A stretch of DNA of 27,979 nt from a virus. The stretch spans positions 1-27,979 of the IMG/VR virus record IMGVR_UViG_3300043446_001383. The stretch is one strand, 5' to 3'. The translations under genes were made by a program, and so were the position numbers. The notes beneath the pieces were generated by a model. That model saw only the letters and a list, made by a program, of their open reading frames with translations. It was not told where the DNA came from and made no database searches. Shown piece after piece: positions 5,558 through 27,979 of the stretch (its first letter is position 1; each line of letters starts with the position of its first letter).

Positions 5558-6034
5558 ATGAGAATTAAACTAGACTGGAGAAGCGCTAGTAAAGAAAACT
5601 ACAACAGTTTCTGTAAGAAACATCCGTCCATTAAGCTTACATTTGATCAATGGAGAAACATCATTTATTCATTTAATGATGCTTTCAGAGAATACATCCT
5701 TGAGACAGGAGAAAGAGCAAAGCTACCCTTTGGGTTTGGTGAGTTCTCAATAAGCAAGAAGAAGCGTAGGAAGATAAAAGGAATAGATGGTAAAGAGTTT
5801 GTCAACCTTCCTATCGACTGGAAAAAGACAAAAGAGAAAGGTAAGCGCATATACAATTTCAACTTTCACACAGAAGGTTTTTTCTTTGGATGGATGTGGT
5901 TTAAAATAACAGCTAGATTTAAACAGTCAAACCTGTGGTATTTCAAACCTTCCAGAAACACTTCCAGACTTCTCTCTCATTATTTGAAAACTGACGATAA
6001 ATACCAACATCTTTATCACGAATGGAAAAAGTAA
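5558..6034 (+). CDS. IHF/HU-like structural-block protein, 158 aa
   Basis: ATG 5558 is one base after the previous TGA. Residues ~28-75 read like the core of an IHF/HU subunit: a helix (TFDQWRNIIYSFNDAFREYI), then GERAKLPFGFGEFSISKKK at 51-69, matching the bacterial G-E-x-V-x-L-x-G-F-G-x-F pattern with basic residues after it. The remainder (NLPIDWKKTKEKGKRIYNFN; FFFGWMWFKITARFKQSNLW) is aromatic and basic and has no counterpart in ordinary ~95-aa IHF. crAss-like phages are known to encode an IHF-like protein in this part of the tail gene series. It may bind DNA at the neck or have become a structural ring protein. The fold call is likely; the DNA-binding role is uncertain. Confidence 0.65.
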   Translation: MRIKLDWRSASKENYNSFCKKHPSIKLTFDQWRNIIYSFNDAFREYILETGERAKLPFGFGEFSISKKKRRKIKGIDGKEFVNLPIDWKKTKEKGKRIYNFNFHTEGFFFGWMWFKITARFKQSNLWYFKPSRNTSRLLSHYLKTDDKYQHLYHEWKK

Positions 6035-7016: not shown

Positions 7017-10000
7017 ATGGCTGAACAGGAACAAGGCAATATTAGACAGGAGTATAATAATGCTACGACTGGTCTCAACATGGACCAAACCCCCAACCAA
7101 ATACAGAAGGGGAAACTTACGTATGCATTAAATGCTGCTGTTGAAAACTTTGACTCTAATTCTGTAAACTATCAGAATGAGCCAGGGAATGAACTATGTG
7201 TTACATTCCCTTCTGGCTTTGTACTTATAGGTAATCATTTCATCCAAGAGAAGAATAAACATGTATTCTTCATCACTAATCCAGACACTGGGGCTAGTCA
7301 GATTGGTTATATGCAAAACAACGATTGTATCTATCGTGTTCTTGTAAATGCTCCATGTCTTAATTTCAATCTTGCCCATCCTATACAAAAGGTGGCACAC
7401 AAGATAACAAACTGCACTACAGAAATCTACTGGACAGATGGTTACAATCCTAGGAGATATTTAGATATTGACAACATCCCTAAGGTGTTGAAATCTGGCA
7501 CTCCTTTCTGTGATCCAGAATATACAGACGATCTAGACTGTAATCAGCTCAAGCTTCAACCTAATTTTAAGATTCCTCAAATAGAGGTAGCAGATGTTAC
7601 CAGCACAGGTAATCTAACAGCTGGTACATACCAATTTGCTATTCAATATTCTGATCCTCAGGGTAATCCTTACACATCCTACTATTCTATTACCAATCCA
7701 ACACCTATTGCTGATCCTTTTATTACATCAGTGAATTTCAACTATCCTGTTGGAAAATCCATCATTCTTGATATCAGCAATCTTGAGGACACTGGGCTTT
7801 ATCAATATTTTAACTTAGCAGTGATCAAAACAGTGAATGACATCACTTCTGTGGAGCTGGTAGGTACATATTACATTGATGCTGTACAGAAACAGATTAC
7901 ATACACTGGTCAGAATGTTACACAGATACGTCTAACCATCAATGATATATTTGAGAAGTTCCCTTATTATGACATAGCACAAGACCTGACCACCGCGCAG
8001 GATATTCTGATATGGGACAATCTTACATCTATTGATCGTATCAACTATCAAAGCATTGCTAATCAAATCAATCTTCAGTGGGAAAGCTGGAGAATTCCTG
8101 CTAATGAGAATTACGCAGATGAACTGAATGCCACAAATCTCAGAGGATATCTGAGGGATGAGGTGTATGCTTTTGAAATAGTATTCTTGCTTAAGAACGG
8201 TAAGCAAACTGATGGATTCCACATTCCTGGAAGAATAGCAAATAGTTTTGACTTGACACCAGTTTCTCCAGCTAACAATGACTTCATTGGTGAACCTGAT
8301 CCTTTTACAGGAACAAGTCCATATTGGAAGATTTATAACACAGCATCTGTTACAGGATTTTCTCCTGGTTATTCCCCTGCTGAAGATTATAAAGGCCCAT
8401 ACCAATATGGTCAGTTTTCATATTGGGAATCTACAGACACATATCCTTGTAACGTAGATGTTTGGGGTGATCTAGCTGGTCAACCCATCAGACATCACAA
8501 GTTTCCAGATATAAATATCAGTCCTGCGTATGAGTCTAAGATTTTTCTTGGACCCACTGCGATGGTGATGGGAAACGATGCTGTATTCCCTGTTGGTGTC
8601 CACTTAGATGTAGAACAAGTGGAGGCTCTTATTCAATCATCTAATCTAACAGATGATCAGAAAAGTGACATTGTTGGATTCAAGATTGTTCGTGCAAACC
8701 GTAACACAAATAAATCAATTGTAGCCAAAGGTATTCTTAGAAATGTTAATACATACGAAAGAGAAAAACAAACCTACTTCTATCCCAACTATCCTTACAA
8801 TGATCTTAATATAGATCCATTCCTTAATGAAACCAATAATGCTTGGACACAGATTTGTGATGGATATACAGTGATTATAGATTCATTAGGTCCAGATCCT
8901 GATGGAGGTCCTGACTGTGCAGTGGTTCAATACACTGATTGTAACAGTAATAAACAGGGAACAAAGAAGTATTTTGCTATAGGAACATATGACCTCTGTT
9001 CTACAGAAAAACCAATAGTCCTTGCTCCTGCAACAGGAAAAGCAGGACTTTCTACATATGATGTTTGGGTGGCAACCATATGTCCTCCTACGTTTTTAAA
9101 AACAGGTAACAGGATAGAATGGGTTGATATATACAACGGTCCTTCTAAAGAATGGATAACAGGATGGCCAGATGTGGAAACATTCACATTTAAAGCAGTT
9201 CCTGGAACTGTCCCTAAAGTAATAGAAGGCACTCCTGACAATATATGCTTCACTGGTCCCACGCGCGTGACTGGTCCAAATTGTAAGATTGAAACTCCAC
9301 AACACGGTGTAACAGAGAAATACAGACAAATATTCAACTCTCCAGAAACTTCCTTTGGACAACCGTTCTTGGGTGACATTCTGAAACTTGAGAGTGTAAT
9401 GTTTGGTAAGGGCAGTGCTCACTTTGTTGAAGTGAAGAGCAACGCTAAGTATAAGCTCTTAACAGAACAGGCTCAGGTGGATGCTCTTGACAGCTCTAAT
9501 AAATTAGGCGCTCTCACTACACCTTTCAGTGCTACAGCTATGTTCACAACATATCAGGCATATCTTGCCATATATGTGAACGGTATCACTAGAAAGAACT
9601 ATGCCTACTCCTTCAACTCTATAGCTGATTACAACTATGGTGTGGGAGTTCCTGACAACCTTGGTATCAAACAAAGAAACTTAGACATTGCTAGATATTT
9701 GATTCCTGGTGTACAGAACGTTGGTGATATACACAACATCAACAACTTCCAAAGAGAATCTTCTGTCTACCTAAGAACTGATCTAACCAGACCAGCGCTT
9801 CCTTTCCCAGACCAAAGCCCTAACATGGTATCTGGAGGAAGTCCTTTAGTGACAGACAAATCTAGATTCACTATATCAGAGATTGGTAATTGTGATGTTC
9901 CTGGTAAAGAAGAAGACATATCTGTTGTATCTTATTATGCTTCTTTGAAGAATCTGTTCCCAAATCAATACGGACAGATCTATTCATATGACACTGTAGA

Positions 10001-11726
10001 CACTGGTTTTCAATCACTTATCGGTGATGTCAATCAACCAAAAACAGTGTTTGGTGGAGATACATTTATTAGCAGATTTGCATTCAAGAGTAAGCTACCG
10101 TTCTTCATAGACAACAGAGTGAATGCTCCTGATGACAGTGATATATTCTATGATGAGATTGGTAATATAGCCTATCCAAAATACTGGCACTCAGCCAGAT
10201 CTATTCTGAAGGATTATGTAAGTAGTGGAGGAACACTGACAAACATCATATCTTACAAAGCTCACAACTTTGATTGTCCTAACGATCAGGGTATTATTGT
10301 TACACCTACACCTACATCCACTACCACTACATCCACCACTATTCTGCCAGGCACCATTATTTCAACCAATCCAAACAGAACATATTATGATGGATATTTC
10401 TATCTGTTTGCATATGGTATTCCTAATTTCTATTGTGAAAGCTCTTATAACGTAGATTTACGTCAAGCCTTTAATAATAGAGAAGGTGACTTCTGGCCTC
10501 ATGTAAGCACAAGTATTCCTGATGATTGGGTGCAACAAAGTTTTGTACCTATTGCTCAAGACAACACCTACTACTATAATGTCACCTATTCTAAGCAGAA
10601 TAAGGAGAACACATTCACCCATCTACCTATTGACTGGGATAAACCTTGTTATACATACTATCCATTTAGAGCCATCTATTCTGATTCTCAGAACATAGAT
10701 GCTGATAACAGAGTGAATAGCTGGTTGATATATAGAGCCATCTCTTATCATGATTTTCCTCAGAACTATGGAAACTTGATTTCTCTAGATGGTATTCAAA
10801 ACAGAGCTGTTCTTGCTCGCTTTGAGAACAAGACACTCATGTATAACAACCTCCTTACGATAGATACAAGCAACCCTCAGGCTGCATATGTGGGCAATCC
10901 TAGGCTATTCCAAGGGGCACCACCAATCGACTTTGCAGAAACTGACTTAGGATATGTAGGAACTCAAAACAAAATGCTTTTGAAGATTCCACAAGGACAG
11001 GTGACAGCAGATGCTAAACGTGGTCAGATATTCCTCATTACTGGTACACAAGCTGTAGATATTTCTGGTTTTGGATCTGGACTCAACAGGTTCTTTACAG
11101 ACCATCTGGCATTTGAAATATTACGTTATTTCCCAAATGTTCCTACAGATAACAACTATGCAGGAATTGGTTTACATGGTGTGTATGACAGCAAGTATGA
11201 CAGAGTGCTCATTACAAAGCTTGATTATATTCCTAAGGTGACTTCTATAATGTATGATGAAGTTACAAAAATGTTTTATGATGTAAAGGTGGTAAATGAT
11301 CTGCTGATCAGAGTGCCTATATCTCTGTCTGATGAAAACTACTTCTGTAACAAGAGCTGGACAGTGTCTTTCAACTTCAATACAAAGAGCTGGATAAGCT
11401 TCCATAGCTATCTTCCCAACTGGTATATTGGAGAGAATAACTTCTTCTATTCTGGCATCAATGGATGCTGTGATGATTTTGATGTGCTTGTTGGTACAAT
11501 TGGGCGTATTCCAACCACCACTACCACAACAACACTTGATTGTGCTCTTGAAGGAACAGTGTATGTTTACAATTGTGACTTGGACGGGGAGGCAATCCCT
11601 ATCACTACAACAACCACTACTAGTAGTACAACAACCACAACTACTAGTAGCACAAGTACAACAACAACAACTACTACTACAATTCTACCTGACTGTTTAT
11701 TAGCTGGAACAGCTGAAGAAATATAA
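7017..11726 (+). CDS. Giant beta-rich tail protein (stabilization/muzzle or tubular B-like), 1569 aa
   Basis: ATG 7017, TAA 11724-11726. The N-terminus has QEYNNATTGLNMDQTPNQI, KGKLTYALNAAVENFDSNSV and YQNEPGNELCVTFP. ITNCTTEIYWTDGYNPRR (to residue ~147) follows. These blocks are typical of the large tail 'stabilization' protein of crAss-like phages, whose counterpart in the crassvirus particle probably forms the distal tail muzzle. Most of the chain is beta-type, with many Tyr/Asn/Pro-rich loops. A Cys module near residues 633-660 (D-C-A-V-V-Q-Y-T-D-C-N) resembles one in the next gene. Three Thr/Ser tracts lie at residues 1096-1108, 1500-1506 and 1530-1555, the last two flanking a short Cys segment. 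The C-terminus is ILPDCLLAGTAEEI. It probably closes the tail and contacts the host surface, with flexible Thr linkers displaying the end modules. Confidence 0.75.
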   Translation: MAEQEQGNIRQEYNNATTGLNMDQTPNQIQKGKLTYALNAAVENFDSNSVNYQNEPGNELCVTFPSGFVLIGNHFIQEKNKHVFFITNPDTGASQIGYMQNNDCIYRVLVNAPCLNFNLAHPIQKVAHKITNCTTEIYWTDGYNPRRYLDIDNIPKVLKSGTPFCDPEYTDDLDCNQLKLQPNFKIPQIEVADVTSTGNLTAGTYQFAIQYSDPQGNPYTSYYSITNPTPIADPFITSVNFNYPVGKSIILDISNLEDTGLYQYFNLAVIKTVNDITSVELVGTYYIDAVQKQITYTGQNVTQIRLTINDIFEKFPYYDIAQDLTTAQDILIWDNLTSIDRINYQSIANQINLQWESWRIPANENYADELNATNLRGYLRDEVYAFEIVFLLKNGKQTDGFHIPGRIANSFDLTPVSPANNDFIGEPDPFTGTSPYWKIYNTASVTGFSPGYSPAEDYKGPYQYGQFSYWESTDTYPCNVDVWGDLAGQPIRHHKFPDINISPAYESKIFLGPTAMVMGNDAVFPVGVHLDVEQVEALIQSSNLTDDQKSDIVGFKIVRANRNTNKSIVAKGILRNVNTYEREKQTYFYPNYPYNDLNIDPFLNETNNAWTQICDGYTVIIDSLGPDPDGGPDCAVVQYTDCNSNKQGTKKYFAIGTYDLCSTEKPIVLAPATGKAGLSTYDVWVATICPPTFLKTGNRIEWVDIYNGPSKEWITGWPDVETFTFKAVPGTVPKVIEGTPDNICFTGPTRVTGPNCKIETPQHGVTEKYRQIFNSPETSFGQPFLGDILKLESVMFGKGSAHFVEVKSNAKYKLLTEQAQVDALDSSNKLGALTTPFSATAMFTTYQAYLAIYVNGITRKNYAYSFNSIADYNYGVGVPDNLGIKQRNLDIARYLIPGVQNVGDIHNINNFQRESSVYLRTDLTRPALPFPDQSPNMVSGGSPLVTDKSRFTISEIGNCDVPGKEEDISVVSYYASLKNLFPNQYGQIYSYDTVDTGFQSLIGDVNQPKTVFGGDTFISRFAFKSKLPFFIDNRVNAPDDSDIFYDEIGNIAYPKYWHSARSILKDYVSSGGTLTNIISYKAHNFDCPNDQGIIVTPTPTSTTTTSTTILPGTIISTNPNRTYYDGYFYLFAYGIPNFYCESSYNVDLRQAFNNREGDFWPHVSTSIPDDWVQQSFVPIAQDNTYYYNVTYSKQNKENTFTHLPIDWDKPCYTYYPFRAIYSDSQNIDADNRVNSWLIYRAISYHDFPQNYGNLISLDGIQNRAVLARFENKTLMYNNLLTIDTSNPQAAYVGNPRLFQGAPPIDFAETDLGYVGTQNKMLLKIPQGQVTADAKRGQIFLITGTQAVDISGFGSGLNRFFTDHLAFEILRYFPNVPTDNNYAGIGLHGVYDSKYDRVLITKLDYIPKVTSIMYDEVTKMFYDVKVVNDLLIRVPISLSDENYFCNKSWTVSFNFNTKSWISFHSYLPNWYIGENNFFYSGINGCCDDFDVLVGTIGRIPTTTTTTTLDCALEGTVYVYNCDLDGEAIPITTTTTTSSTTTTTTSSTSTTTTTTTTILPDCLLAGTAEEI
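8913..9000 (+). repeat. DCN cysteine module, copy 1 (inside 1569-aa protein)
   Basis: Encodes DCAVVQYTDCNSNKQG and a following Gly-rich strand up to a Cys. It aligns with the C-terminal module of the 171-aa protein (12116-12271): A/G-x-V-Q-Y/W-x-D-C-N-x-N-x-Q. It is a protein-level repeat with no long DNA identity. It could be a small disulfide- or metal-stabilised beta domain. Confidence 0.45.
10302..10340 (+). repeat. Thr/Ser/Pro codon tract B (internal to 1569-aa protein)
   Basis: Thirteen codons encoding T-P-T-P-T-S-T-T-T-T-S-T-T, followed by ILPG. This looks like a flexible linker between two beta-rich parts of the tail protein at residues 1096-1108. Confidence 0.85.
11514..11681 (+). 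repeat. Thr/Ser codon tracts C and D at the end of the 1569-aa protein
   Basis: Tract C (11514-11534) is seven Thr codons. A 22-residue Cys-containing segment follows (CALEGTVYVYNCDLDG core), then tract D (11604-11681) of 26 Thr/Ser codons, using ACT, ACA, ACC, AGT and AGC. After D comes ILPDC. Tract D contains ACTAGTAGTACAAC (11619-11632), repeated exactly in the next gene's tract at 12017-12030. Confidence 0.85.
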
Positions 11727-11758: not shown

Positions 11759-12274
11759 ATGACAGCATTAATAATATTAACCACAGCAGGAACAAGTACA
11801 GGACCTTTTAGTCTGTATTCAGATGTAGATAGTTTTGTAACACCTTTTGAATTAGGCATATCTAAAGCAGCACTTGAAGCTGGGTACACTTCATTTATTG
11901 TTCCTAATGGTACAACTATAATCAGAGTGAAGTCTAATAGCATATGTACAAACTATGTAGACCTTCCTCTTGGTACAACTACTACAACCACTACATCTAG
12001 TACTACTACCACTACAACTAGTAGTACAACCACTACAAGTACAACCACTACAACCTATTGTTCTACTGTTACTGAAGGACTTGGTTGTTTCAATTGGAAC
12101 TTTACAGCAGCGGAGGGAGGTGCAATCGTGCAGTGGATAGATTGTAACGGTAACAACCAAACATCAGTATTGGGTGGAGGTGATTCAGGAACTGCATGTT
12201 TGTGTGATGGTCAATCCCCAAATATTTTAGAGGGTAGCCTATCTATTTTAAGTCAAGTGGGTACATGTTCATAA
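11759..12274 (+). CDS. Thr-linker virion protein with shared N-terminal domain and Cys module, 171 aa
   Basis: Three parts are visible. Residues 1-72 are a small beta domain (LIILTTAGTSTGPFSLYSDV; GYTSFIVPNGTTIIRVKSNS; C63; LPLG) that aligns with residues 2-67 of the next protein. Residues 73-99 are 27 Thr/Ser residues in a row. Residues 100-171 form a Cys-containing beta module: Y-C-S-T-V-T-E-G-L-G-C-F, then AIVQWIDCNGNNQTSV (122-137), CLCDG, GTCS. This is an 'anchor - mucin-like stalk - head' design, as expected for a surface-exposed decoration. No family name is known to me. It sits between the giant tail protein and its probable partner, so it is likely displayed at the tail end. The short N-domain may bind the same site as its neighbour's. 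Confidence 0.65.
   Translation: MTALIILTTAGTSTGPFSLYSDVDSFVTPFELGISKAALEAGYTSFIVPNGTTIIRVKSNSICTNYVDLPLGTTTTTTTSSTTTTTTSSTTTTSTTTTTYCSTVTEGLGCFNWNFTAAEGGAIVQWIDCNGNNQTSVLGGGDSGTACLCDGQSPNILEGSLSILSQVGTCS
11975..12055 (+). repeat. Thr/Ser codon tract E (stalk of the 171-aa protein)
   Basis: 27 consecutive Thr/Ser codons, 22 Thr and 5 Ser, mixing ACT, ACA, ACC, AGT and TCT. It contains ACTAGTAGTACAAC (12017-12030), identical to a stretch of tract D 398 bases upstream. This is the longest uninterrupted tract in the window. Confidence 0.9.
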
Positions 12275-12286: not shown

Positions 12287-13150
12287 ATGAGTAAAACAAT
12301 TATCATAAAGCTGACTAGTTCAGGACCTACAGCAGGTCCTTTCACCATCACTGATGAATTTGGAAACATCATAGCAACTGGTGTTTCCAAAGACAGTTTG
12401 GCTAATGGTGTAAGCTATAATGTTGATGACAATGTTACAATGGTGACTATTGAGTCCACTGGTAAGTGTAAGAACAAAAAGACATTCCCAATTGGTGTCA
12501 CGAATCCTGTAGAAATAGCAGCTTCTAATTATAAACAAATTACAACAGCCTGCATCTGGAGGCACTTAACCAATCCAGAGGTGTATAACTACTTCTACGG
12601 AAACATAGAACCATACATCATTGAGTATCCTTTTGCCTACCAGTATTATGATGAAATTTTACAATCTGTTCAAGACTTCACTAGGGCCTACAAATACCTT
12701 CCTACAGATGATGGTATTTTCAACTACAACAGAAGGATAGCTACCAATAAATACTTCAATAAAGCTGTATTGTACAACGATCAGCAGTCTTCTGGTGTGC
12801 TTGAGTTGGTTCCAAAACCAATCAACAACCTAAAGGAATACTTGAAGTATCCTATATATAGCACTGAAAGTAAGACAATTACATTCACAAAGAGTGATAA
12901 CTTCTATCAATATAACACATTCTGGTCATTGGTTAGAGACAAAGCTGCACCTCTGTTTACAAAGAGTTGTGAGTCTCTGTCCATAGACAAGGTGGTAAAC
13001 CAAGCTAACATGGACTATGGCAAGAGATCCTTTAAGAAGGAACCTCTGAGAGCTAAGGATTTGAAGGTGAGACACATCCTTGATAATAGTTCAGAGACAC
13101 ATTTGGTTTCCCAATTTATTTACACACCAAGTCAAATCTCCTACAAATAA
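12287..13150 (+). CDS. Tail protein sharing an N-terminal domain with the 171-aa protein, 287 aa
   Basis: Residues 2-67 (TIIIKLTSSGPTAGPFTITD; GVSKDSL; NVTMVTIESTGKCKNKKTFP) repeat the N-domain of the upstream gene. From residue ~80 it is different: CIWRHLTNPEVYNYFYGNIE, YQYYDEILQSVQDFTRAYKY, many Tyr/Phe/Asn, then KSFKKEP-like basic blocks. It ends KVRHILDNSSETHLVSQFIY...SQISYK. That ending (V-R-x-I-L-D-N ... LVSQ) recalls the C-terminal part of crAss-like tail stabilization proteins, so this gene may supply a piece carried within one chain in other phages. It ends in the TAATG overlap with the next gene. Tail structural role probable; exact role unknown. Confidence 0.6.
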   Translation: MSKTIIIKLTSSGPTAGPFTITDEFGNIIATGVSKDSLANGVSYNVDDNVTMVTIESTGKCKNKKTFPIGVTNPVEIAASNYKQITTACIWRHLTNPEVYNYFYGNIEPYIIEYPFAYQYYDEILQSVQDFTRAYKYLPTDDGIFNYNRRIATNKYFNKAVLYNDQQSSGVLELVPKPINNLKEYLKYPIYSTESKTITFTKSDNFYQYNTFWSLVRDKAAPLFTKSCESLSIDKVVNQANMDYGKRSFKKEPLRAKDLKVRHILDNSSETHLVSQFIYTPSQISYK

Positions 13151-14838
13151 TGGCAAAGAAGCTAACATCATCCAAGGCAAGAGAAATCCTACACGACAAG
13201 AGCGTGCATGGACATCCTTTGACAGACAAGCAAAGAAGATTCTTTGGTGCTATTGCTGGAGGTGCTAAGCCTTATAAGGCTGAAGAGGGTGGCTGGTTAG
13301 ATAAGTATGAGCAGGGAGGATTGATGCTGAAGCAAAAGACCAAGGACAACTATGGTGAAAAACCAAATGTTAACAATGATAAAGCCACCTATCCTGATGG
13401 ATTTGTAGGATGGGAGTATGATATAACAGGACGTAATTATAGCCCTGCATGGGGTGGACAGTTTCAAATGGGTGGTAAATTAACATTTCTTGAACCAACA
13501 AGTAGAAAACTTCCTGCAGGATACAATCCTATAACAGGTGGTTCTAGTACAGAATATGCTGTCTCTATAGGTGGAGAAGATGGAGAACCTGCATATCTTA
13601 TACCATCTTTTAAATATGGTAAACTATTAAAAGATCCTGTGGATGAGTTTAGAAAAACAGGAGAACATCTTGGTGGTCCATTCAAAACATATCAAGAAGC
13701 AGATGAGTGGGAAAGAACAGTGAGACATCCATATGTAGAAAAAGGACAAACTATTCCCACCCCACTTAGAAGATGGGGAAAAGATTTTGCTATGGGAGGA
13801 TCTCTTCCTGGTGCTGTAGGATTCACATACGCGCGCACGCAGGGAGCTGCTCCTGATAATGGTCCATATGCTAAGAAGACAAAGGCTAGTGCACAGAATG
13901 GAATGGAGATGAAATACTACCAGGCAGGTTTAGACTTTAAACCTAAAACCATCAGCCAAGATGGAACAGTGATAGATCCTGATGGATATTGGAACCCAGA
14001 CAACTGGGGCAACCCTGTCATCATCCCATCTACAGACATCACTATGGAGGGTGTAGATCAACCACTTATTGGTGTTTCTGACACAGGAGACACACAATAC
14101 ATGCAACCTGGAGAAGACTATCAATTTGATGGTGACTACGTAACAGAATATCCAGTGGCTCAGAATGGCAAAACATTGTTTGTAGATAACCCTAATGATC
14201 CAAGATTAAAAGCTTATCAGGATAGTTTAGCAGCATATAATTTATCACAAAGATTTTTAAAAGGGTCAGCTTCAAGCACTGATTATAAACGTTATGCAAT
14301 AGCTAGCTCTGAACCTGATAAAGATAAGTATTGGGGATACGTTAATAAGGTAGTTCGTAAAGAACCAGTTGTAACTGAATTTAATAAATATAAAGGTATA
14401 AGTCCTATTAATGTAGAACCAGGTAGTGGAGGAAACGTAGGTAAAGAATTTTATCCAATATTTAAAAAACCAAAACAACCTGTAAAGTATAAAAAACCAG
14501 AACCTAAACAGGAATTACCTGTCAAGAAACCAGAACCACCTGTTCAAAAGAAACAGAACATATATGAAGGAACTCCTGTATATTCTCCTGGAGCTGGAAG
14601 TGGTTTACCAAGTGCTCTTATAGGATTTCTCAATAAGAAAGGAGACATTACATTCATTAAGCCTGAGGACTACGAAAGATTTGCTGTTCCTAAATATGGC
14701 AGAGAATACATAGAGAAACAAAGAGATGGTGGTGTGAATAAGGCTGATGAATATCCTATTGAAAAGCTGGATCAATTGCTTAACTTTACAAACTATAACA
14801 AACCAACCAAGGGTGGATGGTTAGATAAATACAACTGA
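13150..14838 (+). CDS. Virion-associated protein with GGWLDKY ends and LTDKQRRFFGAIAGG motif, 562 aa
   Basis: ATG overlaps the previous stop by one base. The N-terminus SSKAREILHDKSVHGHPLTD and KQRRFFGAIAGG (residues 7-38) is a basic motif seen in several crAss-like phage proteins. GGWLDKY occurs at 47-53 and again at the extreme C-terminus (555-561). The middle has repeated G-G blocks, SLPGAVGFTYARTQGAAPDN (218-237) and KKTKASAQNG, also remembered from crAss-like phages. A Lys/Pro-rich linker spans ~438-470. No enzymatic motif is visible. The low-complexity, Gly-rich, motif-repeat structure fits a cargo or ejection protein held in the particle, possibly cut at repeated motifs. Membrane segments are not evident. 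It ends TGA one base before the next gene. Confidence 0.6.
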   Translation: MAKKLTSSKAREILHDKSVHGHPLTDKQRRFFGAIAGGAKPYKAEEGGWLDKYEQGGLMLKQKTKDNYGEKPNVNNDKATYPDGFVGWEYDITGRNYSPAWGGQFQMGGKLTFLEPTSRKLPAGYNPITGGSSTEYAVSIGGEDGEPAYLIPSFKYGKLLKDPVDEFRKTGEHLGGPFKTYQEADEWERTVRHPYVEKGQTIPTPLRRWGKDFAMGGSLPGAVGFTYARTQGAAPDNGPYAKKTKASAQNGMEMKYYQAGLDFKPKTISQDGTVIDPDGYWNPDNWGNPVIIPSTDITMEGVDQPLIGVSDTGDTQYMQPGEDYQFDGDYVTEYPVAQNGKTLFVDNPNDPRLKAYQDSLAAYNLSQRFLKGSASSTDYKRYAIASSEPDKDKYWGYVNKVVRKEPVVTEFNKYKGISPINVEPGSGGNVGKEFYPIFKKPKQPVKYKKPEPKQELPVKKPEPPVQKKQNIYEGTPVYSPGAGSGLPSALIGFLNKKGDITFIKPEDYERFAVPKYGREYIEKQRDGGVNKADEYPIEKLDQLLNFTNYNKPTKGGWLDKYN

Positions 14839-17671: not shown

Positions 17672-20329
17672 ATGGCTTCATTTACAGACCTCATACCGCA
17701 ATTTAACCCCTACATCCAGCAGCTTCCTGTGGAGGCTATGGTGAATGTGGGTATGGAGAAACAGAGGCGCTATGATGAGGGTTTACAAAAGATTCAGTCT
17801 CAGATTAACAATGTTGCTGGTCTAGATATCTACAGAGATACAGACAAGGCATATCTACAATCTAAGCTGAATGAACTTGGTAACAACCTCAAACTCGTAG
17901 CTGCTGGTGATTTCTCTAACTTCCAGTTGGTCAATTCCGTGTCTGGAATGACCAATCAGGTGGCAAAAGATCCTATTGTTCAGAACGCAGTGAGTTCTAC
18001 AGCTAGGCTTAGAAAGGAACTTGCCTCTATGGATGAATATAAAAAGAAAGGCAAGTCTGACAAAAACAACGAAGAGTTCTTCATGGAGAAGGTGGTAAGA
18101 CCCTATCTAGATGGACCACTTGATGCTTCCTTTAATGGAGCCTATTCTCCTTACACTGACATCATGGGACTCATCAGTGATAACATGAAGGCTGCTGGGA
18201 TAGACAAGTCAATTGTACAGCAGATGTATCAAACCGACAACCAAGGCAGATTGATACTTGGAAAAGACGGTCAGCCTATTCCTGCTAGAACCATGACTGA
18301 GGTGGAAACATCAACCAACATGAAGCAGGTGAAGGCTATTGTAGAAAATGTACTTAGCAGAGGAGATGTACAAAATCAACTTAATATTGATGGTTGGGCA
18401 AATACAAGAGGCATATCCTCACAGTCTCTTATAGACAACTATCGTATACAGTATGATAAGAAGATAGGAGATGCTGATTCTGACATGTTAGAACTCAACA
18501 CCCTTCTTACAGGAAAAATGGGTTCTGGCGAAAGAGCAGTGTTGGAAGAAAAACTTAATGTTCTTAAAGACAATAAGCAGAAATACAAAGACCAATATTT
18601 AGCTCTTGGTGCTCTTGCACAAGCTAACCCTGATGCTTTCAAACAGCAATATTACAAAACAAACTACGAGAATAACCTTCTTGAGCAATTTACGAAATAC
18701 GAAAGAAACGAGAAGAATCTAAAAAGTCCTCTTACAGAACAACTCAATTGGGAAGCTGATTATGCTTTCAAAGAAAAGAAGGAAGCCTTTGATCAAAAAA
18801 TGGCTCTTCGTAAACAGCAGCTTGAAGAATTTAAGTTTCAAGCTGAATATGAGTTTGACCAATCTACAGGTGAGTGGAAGAAAAAACCAGACCCAACAAA
18901 ACCAACTGATGGAGGATTACTCCGTCTCACTGGTGATGTATCTGGGGAAGAGAATAGAAGTGCTGTACAGAGACAAGAGGCTCAAGTTCGTGGCATAGAA
19001 CAAACAAATAGACAAGTTGGAATGGACCTCATGTACAACTATTTTTACAAGTTGAATGATGGTAAAGACAGCAAGGGTAATGCTCTTACAAAAGCTGGTG
19101 TTTCTAGAATGGTTGAGAAGTTTGCAAAAGACAACAATGAAACTACAGACCAGTTTTTAACCAGATGGATATTAAACCTTAATAACAAAGCAAAAGAGAA
19201 TGGTGTCCAACTTAGTGCAGCAGATAGAGAAACTATTGACAACTTTAAAAGTAACCATTACAATTACACCACTCTTCTAGCTCTTGGAAAGATTGCTGAT
19301 GATGAGGCTCTCAAATCCACTGGTGTAGATATAAACGAATACACCAAAACCCTCAACCCAATAAACGTCAAGTTGAAAGATGGTAGAAGTGTAACAATTG
19401 GTAAAGAAGATATCCTTGATTATGCTCTTTTTTTAAAGAACAATGATAAAGGTGCTGAAGATAGGATTTCTGCCAAATATGGCTCTATCAAAAACTTTCC
19501 TCTTCACGCAAGTGGAACAATAGGATTAGTAACTGGCCCTGATATAAGAGCAGCTCAAATTGCTTTAGAAAACACTGAAGCAATGAAACTTCAGAAACTG
19601 TCAGGACTGAACACAATACTTGGTAAAGATTTTAGCAAGTTAAAAGAAGCTTCAAAGATTAAGAATGATTTCCTTGCTAACGTGGTAAACACAGATGATG
19701 TGTTCTCTTTTGGCGAAGGTGAGGAAAGCAAAATGAAAACTGCTAAGAACAAAGCTATAACATTTATATCAGGAGCATCTTCCTTGACAGGAAAAAACTA
19801 TAACAAGAGTGTGGCTTTAGCTGCTTTAACAGATCCTAATTCAAAACTATCCTTTAGGGCAGCTGCACCTTTTGAAGAAGGTGGTAAATGGAGTGGTACA
19901 TTGATAATCACCACAGACAAGGGTGTTGTTATTGAAGCTGATGTTCCTGTACAGAAAGATTTTGAACAAATCACTGGAGCTAAGTTTAACCCATATAAGT
20001 TCAATCCTTTAAGGGCAAGAGCAATGGTTAGTAAATTTGGATCTACAAATCTTGGTGCATTCACCACAGATAAGAGAGCTTGGGAGAGTGCTGCTATAGG
20101 TTCAGAGAATTTTGTATCAATGTTAGGTTCAAAAAAGTATATTCCTTTAGGAGCAGATCTAAATGTTCTTCCTAATGGAGGATATACAGTGACAGCTTAT
20201 TTCAAAGATAGATCTACTAACAAAGTGTTAGAACCAATAGAGTTTAGTCGTAAATATATTTTAGAAGAACAGGCACAAGCTGATCTAGCTTTGCTCACTG
20301 AATCTATGGTTGACAAGGAGTTAAAATAA
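17672..20329 (+). CDS. Large alpha-helical virion cargo protein, 885 aa
   Basis: ATG 17672 right after a promoter; TAA 20327-20329. The N-terminus MASFTDLIPQFNPYIQQLPV, then GMEKQRRYDEGLQKIQSQIN and NVAGLDIYRDTDKAYLQSKL, followed by DPIVQNAVSSTARLRKELAS, is a pattern I remember from large crAss-like phage proteins encoded next to the RNA polymerase-type giants. Residues ~1-420 are strongly helical and charged (for example KEKKEAFDQKMALRKQQLEE). The second half is mixed alpha/beta with Gly turns and no known catalytic motif. There is no signal peptide or clear membrane helix. It is likely packed in the virion and ejected with DNA, possibly forming part of a transit channel. The giant gene begins five bases after its stop. 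Confidence 0.6.
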   Translation: MASFTDLIPQFNPYIQQLPVEAMVNVGMEKQRRYDEGLQKIQSQINNVAGLDIYRDTDKAYLQSKLNELGNNLKLVAAGDFSNFQLVNSVSGMTNQVAKDPIVQNAVSSTARLRKELASMDEYKKKGKSDKNNEEFFMEKVVRPYLDGPLDASFNGAYSPYTDIMGLISDNMKAAGIDKSIVQQMYQTDNQGRLILGKDGQPIPARTMTEVETSTNMKQVKAIVENVLSRGDVQNQLNIDGWANTRGISSQSLIDNYRIQYDKKIGDADSDMLELNTLLTGKMGSGERAVLEEKLNVLKDNKQKYKDQYLALGALAQANPDAFKQQYYKTNYENNLLEQFTKYERNEKNLKSPLTEQLNWEADYAFKEKKEAFDQKMALRKQQLEEFKFQAEYEFDQSTGEWKKKPDPTKPTDGGLLRLTGDVSGEENRSAVQRQEAQVRGIEQTNRQVGMDLMYNYFYKLNDGKDSKGNALTKAGVSRMVEKFAKDNNETTDQFLTRWILNLNNKAKENGVQLSAADRETIDNFKSNHYNYTTLLALGKIADDEALKSTGVDINEYTKTLNPINVKLKDGRSVTIGKEDILDYALFLKNNDKGAEDRISAKYGSIKNFPLHASGTIGLVTGPDIRAAQIALENTEAMKLQKLSGLNTILGKDFSKLKEASKIKNDFLANVVNTDDVFSFGEGEESKMKTAKNKAITFISGASSLTGKNYNKSVALAALTDPNSKLSFRAAAPFEEGGKWSGTLIITTDKGVVIEADVPVQKDFEQITGAKFNPYKFNPLRARAMVSKFGSTNLGAFTTDKRAWESAAIGSENFVSMLGSKKYIPLGADLNVLPNGGYTVTAYFKDRSTNKVLEPIEFSRKYILEEQAQADLALLTESMVDKELK

Positions 20330-20334: not shown

Positions 20335-23300
20335 ATGCCAGAATTACCAATTAATCTTTCAGGCACACCAACGTACAAGAGAGCAGCAGGAGCTTCTCCT
20401 GATAACCTCTCTGTGGCTAATCGTGAATACAATCCACTGAATGATACTTCCCTTAATTATGCAACACCTAAGAAGTCTGGATATGATGCTTCTAGCATAA
20501 CCATGGCTGAGGCTGCTTCAGACAGAACTGGTAGATACAAAACCGTAATGTACGGGTATGATAATGAGGAAGCTGCAGCTCAACGTCAGAGCATCCTTGA
20601 TAAAGGAGCCAATGGTATATTGAAAGGTGTTAACCTCGCAGCCACCACTATCGCTGGAGGTTTTGGTATGTTATATGGAATACCAAAGGCTGCCTCCACA
20701 GGAAGATTGGCTGATATATGGGACAACGATGTAATGAGGCAATTGGATGATTGGAATAAAGAAGTGGATGATAAAATCCTTCCAAACTATTATACAAAAG
20801 CTGAGAAAGATTCAGCTTGGTATTCTCCAGACAACTGGTTCACTGCTAACTTCTTATTTGACAAACTCATCAAGAATGCAGGATTTGCTGTAGGTGCTAT
20901 GGTGAGTGGTAATATTATTAACGCTGGGCTCCTTAGAGCTGGTGCAGCTTTAGGAAGAGTGGCATCTGCTGGTGCTGTTGCAGCTGAATCAGCTCAAGCA
21001 TTTAAGATATTTTCACCTTTGTTGAGAAATACAGCAAGGGCTTTCAGTGCTGGTAAAAACATTGAAGCTGCTACCACTTTGAGGAAAGAATTATCATCTA
21101 TTGCAGATGTTGCTGCTAGAAGCTCTGAACTTGCACAGATTGAAAAAAGTGTAGGGGCTTTTTCACAGTTTAGTAATTCTGCTCGTAGAACAGCTATTGC
21201 TGCCTACTCATCTGCTGGTGAAGCTTCCTTTGAAGCCTTACAAACAGGTAATCAGTTTAGAGATTCTCTGATTCAAGAATATGTAGACAAGTATGGAGAA
21301 CAACCAACTGGTGATGTTTTGGAAGAAATAAACAAAAAAGCTGACCAGGTTGGTAAGACATCTTTCCTTGGTAACCTTGCACTTCTTGGTGCTACAGAAT
21401 ATGCTCAACTTCCATATCTATTAGGATCTTCCTATAAAAATACAAAACAGGCAGCTGGTGCTTTTGCTGGAAAGGTTGATGATATTATTGCAAAAGAACC
21501 AACAACAAGGCTTGGAAAGTTGTATTCAAAATCTACAAGCATTGGTAGATATGTATTTGATCCTAAGGAAGCAGGACAAGAAGTTGGTCAGTATGCTCTT
21601 CAAGTGGGCACACAAAACTATTTTAAAAAAGGAATGGGTTCTGAAGATGCTGATGTTTGGGTGGACGGATTCCTATATGGTTTTGTTGGTAGAGATGAAG
21701 AAGGAAAAGGAATAGGTGCTTTGGTATCTAAAGAAGGTATGGAAAGCTTTCTTCTTGGTGGTCTTACAGGTGGACCTTTACAAGCCAGAACAAAGTACCA
21801 AGAAACTCGTGCTAAAACTGAAAATACACAACGTTTCTTAGATCAAATTGATAGAGCTCCTTCTTTTAAAGAAGCATTTGTTGATAAGATGAATGCTGTA
21901 AACAGAGGTGTTGTTTTACAAGAACAACATGAAGCAGCAATTCTTGTAGGAAATGAATTAGAAGCTCGTGATCTGAGAACAGATATGATGCACAACTACT
22001 TGGCTCCTAGAATCAAGTATGGCAGATTTGACATGGTGATGGAGGACATCTCTGAGCTTCGTCAAATGTCTTCTTCAGAAACTGGTCTTGCTGAGTTGAA
22101 GGCTCAGGGTATTGCTAATGTTAATGATACAGTTGATAGCTTTCAATCAAGGCTAGGCAAATTTGAACGTGTAGCTAAGAACACAAACGAAATATACAAT
22201 GGTTTGTACATAAGATATGCTGGTGAAAGACTAGAAAATGGTAGTCTTAAATACTCTCCTTATGTACTTGATAAAATGGCGTATGCATCTAGTAAGATAG
22301 CTGACTACGATCTTCGCATCCCACAACTTAACAATATTCTAGTAGAGAAAGGTATACTAGTTGGTGATGTACTAAGTGATATTCTTAATAATAGAAAACC
22401 TGCAAAGGAGGCCACTGAAGCTATCCTTGATAATATTAATAGTCTTTCAACAACCTCCACTGTAAAAGATGGTTTAAAGACCGCTCTTCAAGATATTATT
22501 GATTTGGGTGATCGTAGGAAAACCTTCATGGAAGAGTATGAGGATATTAAAAACAATCCACAGAAATATGAGGCTGATCTTGAGGCTGAAGAAATTGAAG
22601 AGTCTGTAATTGTTAAGCAGTCTGTAATTTCTGAAGAAACCAAAAGAAAGAAAACTGTAGAGAAAGAACTTGAGCTTGGTAGAGAATATGCTCTAAAACA
22701 GCTTGCAAAGGTTGAGAAGGGTAAGTTGCAACTTGCTCCTAAACTCACCGTACTGTCTAAAACTCTTGGTGGTGAATACCAAGTGAAACTCCCTGATGGA
22801 ACAGAAACATTCCTCAAACCAGAAGAGTTTAAACAATACCAAATAGTAGAACAAGAGATTGATCCTAAAGAAATTGCCACTCTTGTTGATGAGTCTATAG
22901 ATGCTGTATTGGCAAAGAAGAAATACAAGGATATTGAAAAGCCTACAGATAACAAAGTTTCCTATGTGAACTCCCTTGGTAATGAGGAGCTTCTAAAGGA
23001 TATTGAAAAAGAAATAGCTGATAGATCCGAATCATTTGTTGCAGATATTGCAAGACAAGATGAGCTTGCAAAACAGTCTGATTTAAGAAAGGCTCTTGAG
23101 GAAACCAGTGATGTAGGTGTTCAAACCGTAAGAACTGGAGAAGGTAAATATGAACCAGATCCTAGGAAAACAAATCAAGAAGTTGTAGACAGCACAAAGC
23201 CTCCTGTGGAAGGATATTCTCAGAAGGAACCTCTGGCAGAACATCATGTTCGTGCTAATAGATTTGGAGCTAACTACTATACATTTCCTAATAAGGATAA

Positions 23301-26300
23301 CTTCCGTGGTGTTATTGTAACACAAGGTAATGAAGCAAAACTTGGCATCCCTGGACTTATGCAGTGGCTTAAGGACAAGGGTAAAGCAGGTGCTCCTGTA
23401 GATCCTTCAAAAACAATTGCACTGGTGGTAATGGGTATAGATCCCATCACTAATGAGAAGTATTTTATAGGTGTTGATGGTGAAAGATTAAAAGAACCCA
23501 CTCTTGAAAACACCATCTATCAGGTGTTTCCTGAAACCCTTGACTGGTCTGGTGGAGGATCTATGTTCAGAGAAGGCACTCCTGAGGATGTAAGAAAAGC
23601 TCTTACAGAAAATTATAACAAATGGAGAAATAGCACACTTGCAAATCCTTCTGTTGATTTGTATAACATCAGTGCTTCCTTTGGTGTTCCTCAGTATGTA
23701 GGACAGCTTGACGAAAGAGGTAATTTTGAATTTGACTATACAGCTACAGTTCCTGTAGAAGAATCTGAACTTATTACAGAGAAAGATTTGAGAACCAGGA
23801 GAGTGATAGGTGTGCCTACAACAGATGGTGCTGTTGTATATGGAAGTTCTACATTCAATGATGTAAAAGGCATTCCTCTGTTATATACAGCCAATGGTCT
23901 GGTGAGACTTAATAACAGACAGATCAGCAAAAACGAAGCATCCTTGGTATATGATGCAATATCTAAATTGGCTAACAATCTGTTCAAGGATGGTAATCTG
24001 AAGAGCAACGAATCTATAATGCTCTACAACTGGCTTAAGTCAGTAGTATACTGGGGCACTCCTAAAGATCCACAAGGAAACAGAAAACCTGCTGGATTTA
24101 GTAGTGTGTTCTTTGAGAACATGCAACTGATCATGGGTAAGGAAGAAAAGAAGTTTTCTCTCAAACCTAACGATCTCAAGAAGAACAAAGCTGCTATTAT
24201 TGAGGAGCTTCAAACCATGTATAACAACGTGAATTCCACTCTTGTATCTGGAGGACAGAAGAAAGACTGGAACAAACCATATACAGAAATCACAGCAATC
24301 ACTCCTGAAGGAATAGAAACCAGGGAATGGAAGAACTACCAAACCTTCCTATTGTCTGCAAAGAATCCTGATGGTAGTGCTAGAAACGCAAAGACTATTC
24401 CTCTTACAACCAGGATTAGACCTTTGGCTAATGCTGAAGATACAAACAGAAAGGGCATCTATTTCACAGTGATAGATAAGAAGGGAAACACTTCTCAAGA
24501 GGTGACCCCCACCACTGCTGAAAAGAAAGTGGTTGTGAAACCTGCCACTCCTGAAGAGGCTAAAAAGGAAGAACCTGTAAAGAAGTTTGTGCTAGATGGT
24601 AAAACTGAAAACATTCTTTCTACAAAGCTTGGCACTGTTTCATTCATTATAAACAGTGATAAGTCTATTTCTTTCCCTGATCCAAGCACAGATCCTGCAT
24701 ATAAAACAGTGCTAGACGGTGCTATTACAAAGCTTGCAACAATCCCTAACAGTGGTGTTACAGAAGAAACCCCTGAAGAGGATGCTGTAAAGGTTGCTGA
24801 GAACATCCTCAGGAACATGATTACAAAAGAGGTGGATAAGCAATTAGCCCCTGCTCCTGTGGTAGAAGCTCAACCTAGTGTAGAAAGAAGTGTTCAAATA
24901 GGTAATTTGCAAATTACTCAAACTATTAATTCTAAAGGTAACATAGAAAGAGAGATAAAGAATCTAGATAATGGAAAATCTTTATTGAACGTAATTACCC
25001 CTGAAGGTAAAAGTACATTCTTCTCTCTTCCAAATCTAAATGAAGCAATAGATAGTCAGTCAGAAGCTGTCAAAGCTGTAATAGGTAACATCAACATTAA
25101 TGCAGAACTAGCTGCTTTAGAAGGAGCTAAACCTTCTGTAGCACCAAGTCTGCAAGATAGAATCAACCAGAGGAAACAAGCTGGACCTACTAAAAGAGGT
25201 AGTGATTTCAGATTGATGTTGGCCAAAGACCTGGAGAAACTTAAGCCTGAGAACTGGGCTAAGGTGGAAGCTTTCCTTAAAGCAAACTATCCAAACATTC
25301 CTGTATACAGGGTTAAGAATTACATTCTGGCTGCTAATGGAAGAAGAGCTCATGGTATGTTCCAAGATGGAGCTATCTATCTCTCTGAAGCTGCAGAAGT
25401 GGGCACAATCTATCATGAGGTGTTCCATTCTATATGGCAAGCCCTCACCAGTCCTCAGGAGCGTGCAAACATTGCTAATGAGTTCAGGGGTAGGTCTGGT
25501 GTGTTCTTTGACAAGGCTAGCTTAAAGAACATCAAATACTCTGAAGCTACAGACAAGCAGATGGAAGAGAAGCTTGCTGAAGAGTTTAGAGATTATATAC
25601 AGGAGAACAAAGTTCCACAGAAACCTAAAGAAGGTAAGTCTTGGATTGGTAGGTTGTTTTCTGACATAGCTAACTTCTTTAAGACATTCTTCACTGGAGA
25701 GGATGCAAAGTCCAATACAGAGAAGTTGTTTGAGAAAATAGGCTCTGGCTATTTCAAACAAACCACTCCATACGATTCATCTCTATCTTTTGCCAGGAAA
25801 GGATTTATTGATATAGAAGATGTTGTAGGTGGTGAATTGGCTGACTATAGCCTGGATGTGTTTACAGGTGAGCAAGTGCATGACTTAATGCAGCACATGA
25901 CTTACATCACTGTAAGAGACCTGTTTGAAGAAAACAAGGGACTCTTCACAATAGTGAAGGAAAAGAAGACCGACATCCTTAAGAAACTCCAAGATGAGCT
26001 TGGTGATCTTATGGCTGATAATATTACAGAAGTTGAGAAGATGATAACTGAGGGAGAGGCTACAGCTGCTGAGGCTGATGTGTTGATTGATCATTACAAC
26101 AATCTCTATGAGAATATCATAAATGAGTGGGAAGGATTAACAGAGAAGTTTGAAGAATACATCAAAACTTATTCAATTGAATTTGATGAGAATGATGAAA
26201 TCAATGTTACCAGTGATGAAAGGAGTAAGAATGATCCTTACGGAGATGCTAGGAAGATAGACAACATGAGAAAGACCAATGCTGCTGTTAAGTTGCTTTT

Positions 26301-27979
26301 GGCCAGTCTTCCTGTTGTGGATGTAAATGGAACTGAGAAACTTTCATCTATAGGAGGATACACCCTCCTTCCTATGAGTGAGGTGTTTATGGGGGCTATG
26401 AACAATGTTCATAATTCAAGGAATATGACAGAGATGTTGAATAGGATTAAAGCCATGGCTGCTGATGATCCTAAATACATCAAACTGTACAATCGTCTTT
26501 CCAAGCTTAAGAACATAGATGAACTTAATGATGTGAATGATCTACAGCTTCTTTCTGCATTCTGGAGGTCCTTCAAGAAACAAAGTCCTGATGTAAAAAC
26601 TGTATACATTCTGGACAATGGAGATATACAAATAGGTGATTCCAACTTCACCACTGCAGCTAGGCAGGTGAAAGAAGAATTCCTGAACAATATAAAAGAA
26701 TCAATCAGCAAAGGAAGCAAGTATTTTAAAAAGGCTGAGAATGGCAAGTCCTACATAGGAAATGCTGATGCTATAAAAGGCGATGTAAAGCTTGAAAAAG
26801 ATAACCTTGCAGCACAAGTTTCCTTCATGAATGAACTTGGAATTGAGTTTGATTTGGATAGGCTTTCTGTTATTCCAGAGAAAACAAAGTTTGCTGAGGC
26901 AGTAAATGGTATCAGAACCAGCATTGCTAACTCTAGAAGCATAGTGAGCGTAGGTGGTAGATCTTTAAGTATAGACGGACGCTTGCGTGAGCTGGCTGAG
27001 ATTAAAGCTAAAATGGACAATCCTGAATTCAGCAGCACATATTACAATGTGAACGGTGAGCTTACACAAACATTCATTGGTACAAATGCTGCCAGTGATT
27101 TGTATGATACATTGTCCCAAATAAAGAATCTTAGTGAGCTTGATAATACACAATATGCCTATCTCCTTACAGACAGCTTTGTGAAAAACTCTGTACTGTT
27201 GTACAAGATGTTTGATAAGGAATCCCTTGATCGCATAAGTGATACAGAGCAGTTGATGAAAACTGCCTATGCTGACGGTATGATTGATAACAAGAAGGGT
27301 AAGCAAATAGAATCTTCTAAGCTTAATCAGAAACAAAGACTGATTCAGGAACTCAATCTTAATACAGCTGGTTACTATCTCAACCTCATCCCTGGAGACG
27401 CTTCTATTGGATGGGCTCAGTATATGGGTAACTCTGTAGACAAATCAGAAATCCTGACAAGCTACAAACGTGTGCATGATATATTCAAAGGCTATCTAGA
27501 GGATGAGATGGCTCTTGCTAAGGAAAACCGTCCTGTGGCTGAAGGTAGAAAGTCTGATGAACTTCGCTTCTTTAAATCCATCCTTGGAGATAAGTTGCAG
27601 GCTGCTGTTCTGGCTGAAGAAACCATAGATGATGTATACAAAAATCATGGGGCTGATATTAACGAGGCTATAGACAAGTTTATAAACAATAAGGTTGAGA
27701 AGTTAAAATCAGACCTTTTGGAATATGGCGGTATAGTTCTTGAAGATAACAAATACAAAACCCAAGAGCTTGCTTTTGGTAAAGAAACCATGACAGAAGA
27801 AGAGCTCAATATTGAGCTTGCTGCTCTTTCCATCAACTTTGCCATCAATAATATAGAGCTCCATAAGCTTCTGTATTCTGATCCATATCAGTATTCTGAT
27901 GAACTTAAACGTATCAAAAGCTTTAGTTCTCCTCGTCAGTCTATTATAAACAGCTCTCCAGAAATGAATGCTGCTTATA
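20335..27979 (+). CDS. Giant virion protein with zincin metalloprotease motif, >2548 aa (3'-truncated)
   Basis: Starts at ATG 20335 and stays open to the right edge, giving 2548 whole codons. The N-terminal ~210 residues include two Gly/Ala-rich hydrophobic segments (N93-P117 and N181-G207) that could insert in membranes. Long helical, Glu/Lys-rich regions follow to ~1000, then mixed segments. HEVFH at 1694-1698, preceded by GAIYLSEAAEVGTIY and followed ~45 residues later by EEKLAEEF (1744-1751), fits a zincin metalloprotease: two His ligands, catalytic Glu and a Glu third ligand. A later block, NTAGYYLNLIPGDASIGWAQ (2343-2362), looks conserved in large Bacteroidota-phage proteins. No DxDGD RNA polymerase motif appears in the visible part; it could lie downstream. 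crAss-like phages carry such multidomain giants, injected with DNA and thought to start early transcription. The protease could mature virion proteins or open the host envelope. Confidence 0.7.
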   Translation, partial: MPELPINLSGTPTYKRAAGASPDNLSVANREYNPLNDTSLNYATPKKSGYDASSITMAEAASDRTGRYKTVMYGYDNEEAAAQRQSILDKGANGILKGVNLAATTIAGGFGMLYGIPKAASTGRLADIWDNDVMRQLDDWNKEVDDKILPNYYTKAEKDSAWYSPDNWFTANFLFDKLIKNAGFAVGAMVSGNIINAGLLRAGAALGRVASAGAVAAESAQAFKIFSPLLRNTARAFSAGKNIEAATTLRKELSSIADVAARSSELAQIEKSVGAFSQFSNSARRTAIAAYSSAGEASFEALQTGNQFRDSLIQEYVDKYGEQPTGDVLEEINKKADQVGKTSFLGNLALLGATEYAQLPYLLGSSYKNTKQAAGAFAGKVDDIIAKEPTTRLGKLYSKSTSIGRYVFDPKEAGQEVGQYALQVGTQNYFKKGMGSEDADVWVDGFLYGFVGRDEEGKGIGALVSKEGMESFLLGGLTGGPLQARTKYQETRAKTENTQRFLDQIDRAPSFKEAFVDKMNAVNRGVVLQEQHEAAILVGNELEARDLRTDMMHNYLAPRIKYGRFDMVMEDISELRQMSSSETGLAELKAQGIANVNDTVDSFQSRLGKFERVAKNTNEIYNGLYIRYAGERLENGSLKYSPYVLDKMAYASSKIADYDLRIPQLNNILVEKGILVGDVLSDILNNRKPAKEATEAILDNINSLSTTSTVKDGLKTALQDIIDLGDRRKTFMEEYEDIKNNPQKYEADLEAEEIEESVIVKQSVISEETKRKKTVEKELELGREYALKQLAKVEKGKLQLAPKLTVLSKTLGGEYQVKLPDGTETFLKPEEFKQYQIVEQEIDPKEIATLVDESIDAVLAKKKYKDIEKPTDNKVSYVNSLGNEELLKDIEKEIADRSESFVADIARQDELAKQSDLRKALEETSDVGVQTVRTGEGKYEPDPRKTNQEVVDSTKPPVEGYSQKEPLAEHHVRANRFGANYYTFPNKDNFRGVIVTQGNEAKLGIPGLMQWLKDKGKAGAPVDPSKTIALVVMGIDPITNEKYFIGVDGERLKEPTLENTIYQVFPETLDWSGGGSMFREGTPEDVRKALTENYNKWRNSTLANPSVDLYNISASFGVPQYVGQLDERGNFEFDYTATVPVEESELITEKDLRTRRVIGVPTTDGAVVYGSSTFNDVKGIPLLYTANGLVRLNNRQISKNEASLVYDAISKLANNLFKDGNLKSNESIMLYNWLKSVVYWGTPKDPQGNRKPAGFSSVFFENMQLIMGKEEKKFSLKPNDLKKNKAAIIEELQTMYNNVNSTLVSGGQKKDWNKPYTEITAITPEGIETREWKNYQTFLLSAKNPDGSARNAKTIPLTTRIRPLANAEDTNRKGIYFTVIDKKGNTSQEVTPTTAEKKVVVKPATPEEAKKEEPVKKFVLDGKTENILSTKLGTVSFIINSDKSISFPDPSTDPAYKTVLDGAITKLATIPNSGVTEETPEEDAVKVAENILRNMITKEVDKQLAPAPVVEAQPSVERSVQIGNLQITQTINSKGNIEREIKNLDNGKSLLNVITPEGKSTFFSLPNLNEAIDSQSEAVKAVIGNININAELAALEGAKPSVAPSLQDRINQRKQAGPTKRGSDFRLMLAKDLEKLKPENWAKVEAFLKANYPNIPVYRVKNYILAANGRRAHGMFQDGAIYLSEAAEVGTIYHEVFHSIWQALTSPQERANIANEFRGRSGVFFDKASLKNIKYSEATDKQMEEKLAEEFRDYIQENKVPQKPKEGKSWIGRLFSDIANFFKTFFTGEDAKSNTEKLFEKIGSGYFKQTTPYDSSLSFARKGFIDIEDVVGGELADYSLDVFTGEQVHDLMQHMTYITVRDLFEENKGLFTIVKEKKTDILKKLQDELGDLMADNITEVEKMITEGEATAAEADVLIDHYNNLYENIINEWEGLTEKFEEYIKTYSIEFDENDEINVTSDERSKNDPYGDARKIDNMRKTNAAVKLLLASLPVVDVNGTEKLSSIGGYTLLPMSEVFMGAMNNVHNSRNMTEMLNRIKAMAADDPKYIKLYNRLSKLKNIDELNDVNDLQLLSAFWRSFKKQSPDVKTVYILDNGDIQIGDSNFTTAARQVKEEFLNNIKESISKGSKYFKKAENGKSYIGNADAIKGDVKLEKDNLAAQVSFMNELGIEFDLDRLSVIPEKTKFAEAVNGIRTSIANSRSIVSVGGRSLSIDGRLRELAEIKAKMDNPEFSSTYYNVNGELTQTFIGTNAASDLYDTLSQIKNLSELDNTQYAYLLTDSFVKNSVLLYKMFDKESLDRISDTEQLMKTAYADGMIDNKKGKQIESSKLNQKQRLIQELNLNTAGYYLNLIPGDASIGWAQYMGNSVDKSEILTSYKRVHDIFKGYLEDEMALAKENRPVAEGRKSDELRFFKSILGDKLQAAVLAEETIDDVYKNHGADINEAIDKFINNKVEKLKSDLLEYGGIVLEDNKYKTQELAFGKETMTEEELNIELAALSINFAINNIELHKLLYSDPYQYSDELKRIKSFSSPRQSIINSSPEMNAAY

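Follow-up and report, generated by a model that had tools for sequence, protein, structure and literature searches.

The giant open reading frame (ORF) of a Crassvirales-type virus fragment, the IMG/VR stretch of 27,979 bases analyzed here (the window), carries a domain that we identify, from its predicted structure, as a real zincin, and sequence comparison places this domain at the junction between a gp47-type virion cargo module and a virion RNA polymerase. In relatives of this protein, the second His of the HExxH motif alternates with Glu, and the switch is coupled to the residue before the third metal ligand. Our preferred reading, to which we give a probability of roughly one half, is that the zincin in the window binds zinc and cuts the packaged fusion protein near the gp47–polymerase junction, freeing the polymerase.

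Genes in the window follow the Crassvirales order, as matched to crAss001 and phi14:2: phosphatase (3578–4828), IHF-like protein (5558–6034), tail tubular protein (6040–7011) and a stabilization-type protein (7017–11726; PHROG virion structural protein, E 4e-107), downstream of which lie cargo-type genes and then the giant ORF from position 20335. ORFs of 562, 914 and 885 aa are neighbors of the giant ORF. The 885-aa ORF (17672..20329, plus strand) stands in the place of crAss001 gp46 (cargo C2), an assignment by synteny and position only, and is taken here as context rather than as a substrate. Long Thr/Ser runs (TTTTSSTTTT) were seen in three structural-type ORFs, at or near the C-terminus in those at 3–995 and 7017–11726 and internally in that at 11759–12274. 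Two copies of the motif GGWLDKY occur in the 562-aa protein (13150–14838), one close to the N-terminus and one at the extreme C-terminus, possibly for docking or anchoring.

The giant ORF (20335..27978; this and all features within it are on the plus strand) is open over 2548 codons and runs past the window end, so that its product has at least 2548 aa. Its gp47-type N-terminal module, mapped through relatives to approximately residues 77–765 (20563..22631), matched residues 68–829 of crAss001 gp47 when the environmental family was aligned with gp47 (hhalign, E 6e-40); the N-terminus of the ORF itself was 36% identical to gp47 over residues 31–194, and its middle matched giant Suoliviridae proteins (both tblastn). 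Neither the ORF nor the zincin domain yielded a usable family when scanned against Pfam and PHROGs. The two hydrophobic N-terminal segments that had been read from the sequence are present, in 19-residue windows starting at residues 95 and 182, and are moderate only (mean Kyte–Doolittle 1.28 and 1.45). C-terminal to the zincin, the region 25828..27978 leads into an RNA-polymerase module, as indicated by hhalign to crAss001 gp50 and by the fused relatives, and the window ends upstream of the catalytic DFDID motif. Judged by these alignments, the giant ORF appears to comprise the first two thirds of a fusion protein made of the gp47 homologue and the virion RNA polymerase.

The full-length relatives, in which this fusion is complete, have 3763–4618 aa, and all of those in the clade contain the polymerase motif SDFDID. 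Profiles of the environmental clade aligned in the order gp47 N-terminal module (E 6e-40), zincin (E 6e-17, corresponding to the C-terminal part of gp47) and gp50 polymerase (best block E 1e-27), and those of Suoliviridae in the order zincin, then polymerase. The distance from the zincin to DFDID is 1311–1394 residues in the window's clade and ~1477 in Suoliviridae; in the closest fused relatives (L003 and L006), it is 1355–1356 residues, and the motif is therefore expected near residue 3050, off the window end. The sequence-only reading had proposed looking for a DxDGD polymerase motif downstream; a DxDxD motif does occur in relatives, but as DFDID. The gene that follows the fusion gene in relatives matches gp49.

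Furthermore, genes of this type break on either side of the zincin. The gene stops 140–190 residues beyond the zincin motif in crAss001, Dulem virus 41 and L203, and the polymerase is separate where seen; in L204, on the other hand, the gene begins ~130 residues ahead of the motif and holds both zincin and polymerase. In phi14:2, the genes are split and the gp47 homologue is without a zincin. By sequence, the zincin sits at the gp47–polymerase junction, and the breaks that flank it fit a domain that keeps, or in the past kept, two products apart.

Several unusual arrangements were also observed. The L204 gene (L204:9803-16915, Cytophagales MAG) is a stand-alone zincin–polymerase gene with no gp47 module, and its upstream genes are oppositely oriented. 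In phi14:2 g067 (L216:1807-7200), the slot of the zincin is taken by a C-terminal acetyltransferase-like stretch, RRKGIASSVYQF, for which a Pfam scan gave no match. Chitinophaga sp. YR573 has a chromosomal gp47–zincin–polymerase fusion of more than 5087 aa (L200:5240-20500, on a 4.83-Mb contig) with HEAFE and DFDID, standing behind two co-directed ORFs, which is possibly an integrated crAss-like element. In two Suoliviridae (L032 and L033; cr4_1 and cr52_1), the giant gene is interrupted by stops under table 11 and was translated only by masking them; such interruptions fit a reassigned stop codon, which has been reported in some crAss phages.

The motif on which the sequence-only reading was built, HEVFH, does lie inside the giant ORF (residues 1694–1698; 25414..25428), preceded by the segment AHGMFQDGAIYLSEAAEVGTIY and followed by EEKLAEEF (residues 1744–1751; 25564–25587). 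Within the domain (residues 1620–1831; 25192..25827, delimited by alignments and the AlphaFold model), H1694 and H1698 are predicted zinc ligands and E1695 the general base; in the pair E1744–E1745 (25564..25569), E1745 is the predicted third ligand and E1744 the partner in the switch. Four residues past the third ligand stands the acidic E1749 (25579..25581; Glu or Asp in 88 of 88), giving the ExxxE spacing of gluzincins. The chance expectation of HExxH is 0.0065 per protein of this length and composition, and the motif was conserved at the aligned place across Crassvirales, the same domain being found in crAss001 gp47 (TTYHEAFH, HEAFH at residue 2157), cr85_1, Dulem virus 41 and Suoliviridae. 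Conservation of the predicted ligands and base among 116 distinct homologues was complete for H1694, E1695 and E1745 (116/116) but not for H1698, which was replaced by Glu in 79. A second, different HExxH was present in two gp47-type proteins, HEIGH (L012 ORF, residue 924) and HELNH (L038 ORF, residue 143), perhaps marking extra zincin domains.

The AlphaFold2 model (89 sequences, pLDDT 78.8) showed an N-helix, three strands, the HExxH helix, an insertion and the ligand helix, in that order. The three predicted beta strands, NIPVYRVKN, AHGMFQ and AIYLSE (25303..25386), correspond to model residues 29–32, 46–49 and 52–56 by DSSP, and E1745 falls within helix 112–129. It replaced an earlier model of poor quality (14 sequences, pLDDT 60), which matched unrelated proteins only. 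When the model was compared with the PDB by VIA-align, nearly all of the first 40 of 50 matches were zincins, the best being lethal factor (Z 6.9, a middling score), PPEP, IrrE/PprI, ArdC and MATCAP; Foldseek against the PDB gave no significant match. The expected core and the zincins as top structural matches bear out the proposed fold, and, together with the virion-detected homologues described below, support the proposal of a zincin inside a giant virion-carried protein. The HExxH form in the window would most likely be an active zincin.

To which zincins is this domain related? The best structural matches, the catalytic domain of anthrax lethal factor and PPEP (M34) and the IrrE/ArdC zincins, had middling Z scores of 5–7 and no significant sequence match to the window domain; for lethal factor and PPEP, the likeness is structural only (Z 6.9), and the protein context is different. 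PPEP-1 presumably has a Glu (E184) directly before its third ligand. Closer kin are the zincin-like MPTases of phage polyvalent proteins, whose core consists of an N-helix, three strands and two C-terminal helices with HExxH and a Glu (Iyer et al. 2017, PMC5512222); the window domain shares with them the core fold, HExxH plus Glu, and the place inside giant injected proteins. In a small search set of fetched loci, the zincin profile found proteins of Megasphaera (L209, 1e-10) and Marinobacter (L210, 4e-8), both of which contain LPD1 by Pfam, the former also LPD5, ddrB-ParB, MuF_C and SLT. Phage N4 likewise carries a zincin on its virion RNA polymerase, and N4 residues 2205–2362 were the top, though weak, match of the window zincin family (hhalign E 3e-4, probability 42%); the N4 polymerase is T7-like, whereas that of the window family is of the two-barrel Crassvirales type (DFDID). 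No Pfam model reached the cut-off for the window domain, and its relatives matched Tox-MPTase4 weakly (E 0.03, among the best 25 of 32 families). The model core, the reach of the profile to LPD-type proteins and the weak N4 alignment together make the domain kin of the MPTases of Iyer et al.; it belongs with the zincins of phage polyvalent proteins.

Among the closest known systems, phicrAss001 (Kehishuvirus, Steigviridae) has the same N-terminal module, zincin and gene order, and its gp47 is virion cargo (PMC10172136). In crAss001, however, the zincin lies near the gp47 C-terminus, and a gene of its own on the opposite strand encodes the polymerase (gp50); the crAss001 record labels gp47 only as a 'putative RNA-polymerase subunit' and leaves the zincin unmentioned. 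The g067-g066-g065 block of phi14:2 (Steigviridae) is the same cargo and polymerase block, with all three products marked as found in virions by MS/MS, but g067, the gp47 homologue, is without the zincin motif.

The variation at residue 1698 was strictly two-valued. Among 116 distinct domains, it was His in 37 and Glu in 79 and nothing else, a count from an unfair sample, as part of the search patterns admitted no residues other than His/Glu at 1698 or Lys/Glu at 1744. Nevertheless, in the first scan, whose patterns lay elsewhere in the protein (none over 1698, one, TDKQMEEK, covering 1744), the 12 loci with the domain had only His (4) or Glu (8) at 1698, with the same 1698/1744 coupling. The codons at 1698 were CAT/CAC or GAA/GAG only, two sets that differ by two bases. 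The residue before E1745 was Lys (70) or Arg (9) in all 79 HExxE proteins; in the HExxH proteins, it was Glu in 28, Lys in 3, Asp in 2, and otherwise Ala, Asn, Val or Leu.

A tree of the domain alone had too few supported pairs for an independent-pairs test, and we therefore built a tree from the flanking sequence alone (95 proteins, domain excluded). On this tree, 10 His/Glu changes were needed, and well-supported branches require at least 8 of these. Of 8 independent pairs, 7 had Lys/Arg together with Glu and none showed the opposite association (p 0.016). A single HExxE clade was rejected (p 3.6e-5) on a quick LG+G4 tree. The HExxE forms occur with the same fused architecture, and 12 of their 212 columns were invariant, including Y1693, H1694, E1695, E1698 and E1745. 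Simple decay of HExxE was considered and is disfavored: no Gln or Asp intermediates were seen, H1694 and E1745 are invariant, and the invariant general base E1695 argues against it.

In thermolysin, the second His has as a close neighbor the residue that precedes the third ligand, and by this geometry it is plausible that 1698 and 1744 form a charge-compensated second-shell pair. The HExxE site may be a metal site that has been rebuilt, or else a non-peptidase site under selection; a zinc-free salt bridge between E1698 and K1744 may replace the metal, and some of the HExxE relatives (two thirds of the sample are without the second His) may be inactive. It is possible, and we put it forward tentatively, that HExxE with Lys/Arg is a working His-Glu-Glu metal site. 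Crassvirales would have switched to and from it, in a protease delivered with the virion, on eight or more occasions, and the switches would tune the metal, the activity or the processing of the polymerase fusion.

How might such a domain act? According to our preferred reading, junction processing, the virion would carry the fusion protein and deliver it into the host before the DNA. In the HExxH form, zinc would be held by H1694, H1698 and E1745 with E1695 as the base, and the zincin would cut the polypeptide near the gp47–polymerase junction, either while still inside the virion or once in the host cell. The freed polymerase would transcribe the early genes, and the gp47 part would stay with the envelope or the ejection channel. 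In the HExxE relatives, the site, kept under selection and so presumably still doing something, would be rebuilt from the Glu ligand and the neighboring Lys/Arg, perhaps with a changed metal or activity. In favor of virion delivery, crAss001 gp47, gp49 and gp50 were found in virions by mass spectrometry (PMC10172136), and the record of phi14:2 lists their equivalents as detected by MS/MS. Self-cleavage itself we infer from the position of the domain. crAss001 keeps the zincin with gp47 and gp50 already on separate genes, which means that junction cutting is not its only use, and the zincin-free gp47 of phi14:2 also counts against junction cutting.

The N4 virion polymerase, with its related zincin, counts against it as well, since it is packaged uncleaved, and its zincin region is required for encapsidation (Iyer et al., PMC5512222). 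This favors a structural alternative, in which the domain cuts nothing and instead helps the giant protein to be encapsidated, or to be ejected and refolded; the HExxE form, the commoner one in the clade and found beside the same fused architecture, would show that catalysis is dispensable. We regard this alternative as somewhat doubtful, as it leaves unexplained why only His or Glu occurs at 1698 and why H1694, E1695 and E1745 are invariant in both the 79 HExxE and the 37 HExxH proteins. Alternatively, the zincin might be an injected effector that cuts host defense or envelope proteins or RNA-polymerase factors, an option proposed for polyvalent zincins by Iyer et al. (PMC5512222), with the His/Glu switch reflecting an arms race or a change of substrate. 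Its location in a virion cargo protein, its retention in crassviruses with split genes and the repeated independent switching, which fits changing selection, are in line with this; an effector, however, would not need a constant place at the gp47–polymerase junction, and we consider it unlikely.

Far less probable is a maturation protease that cuts the neighboring 562-, 914- and 885-aa cargo proteins during assembly. The genes are adjacent and co-directed, and their crAss001 counterparts are virion cargo, but cleavage goes unmentioned in the crAss001 structure paper (PMC10172136), and the Gly-Gly motif counts of the 562- and 914-aa proteins, whose repeated Gly-rich motifs had suggested them as substrates, are at or modestly above the shuffled expectation (3 vs 2.2 and 6 vs 1.6); this suggestion found no support. 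A chance occurrence of HExxH within some unrelated helical region, for which only the shortness of the motif speaks, is refuted by the low chance expectation, the order-wide conservation and the zincin fold.

The kind of zincin is already known from polyvalent-protein MPTases and the N4 virion polymerase; the domain of the window and its relatives is a new variant. Iyer et al. (PMC5512222) do not mention crAss phages, and their main text does not describe HExxE with Lys/Arg. The openly searchable literature gave no description of a zincin for crAss phages or Crassvirales gp47, which does not in itself establish priority.

crAss-like phages are the most abundant gut viruses, and a protease-type domain at the polymerase junction offers a testable model for the activation of their injected RNA polymerase. 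The same kind of domain is present on two unrelated virion polymerases, those of Crassvirales and N4. Furthermore, the coupled His/Glu and Glu/Lys switch constitutes a natural experiment on the requirements of a zincin active site.
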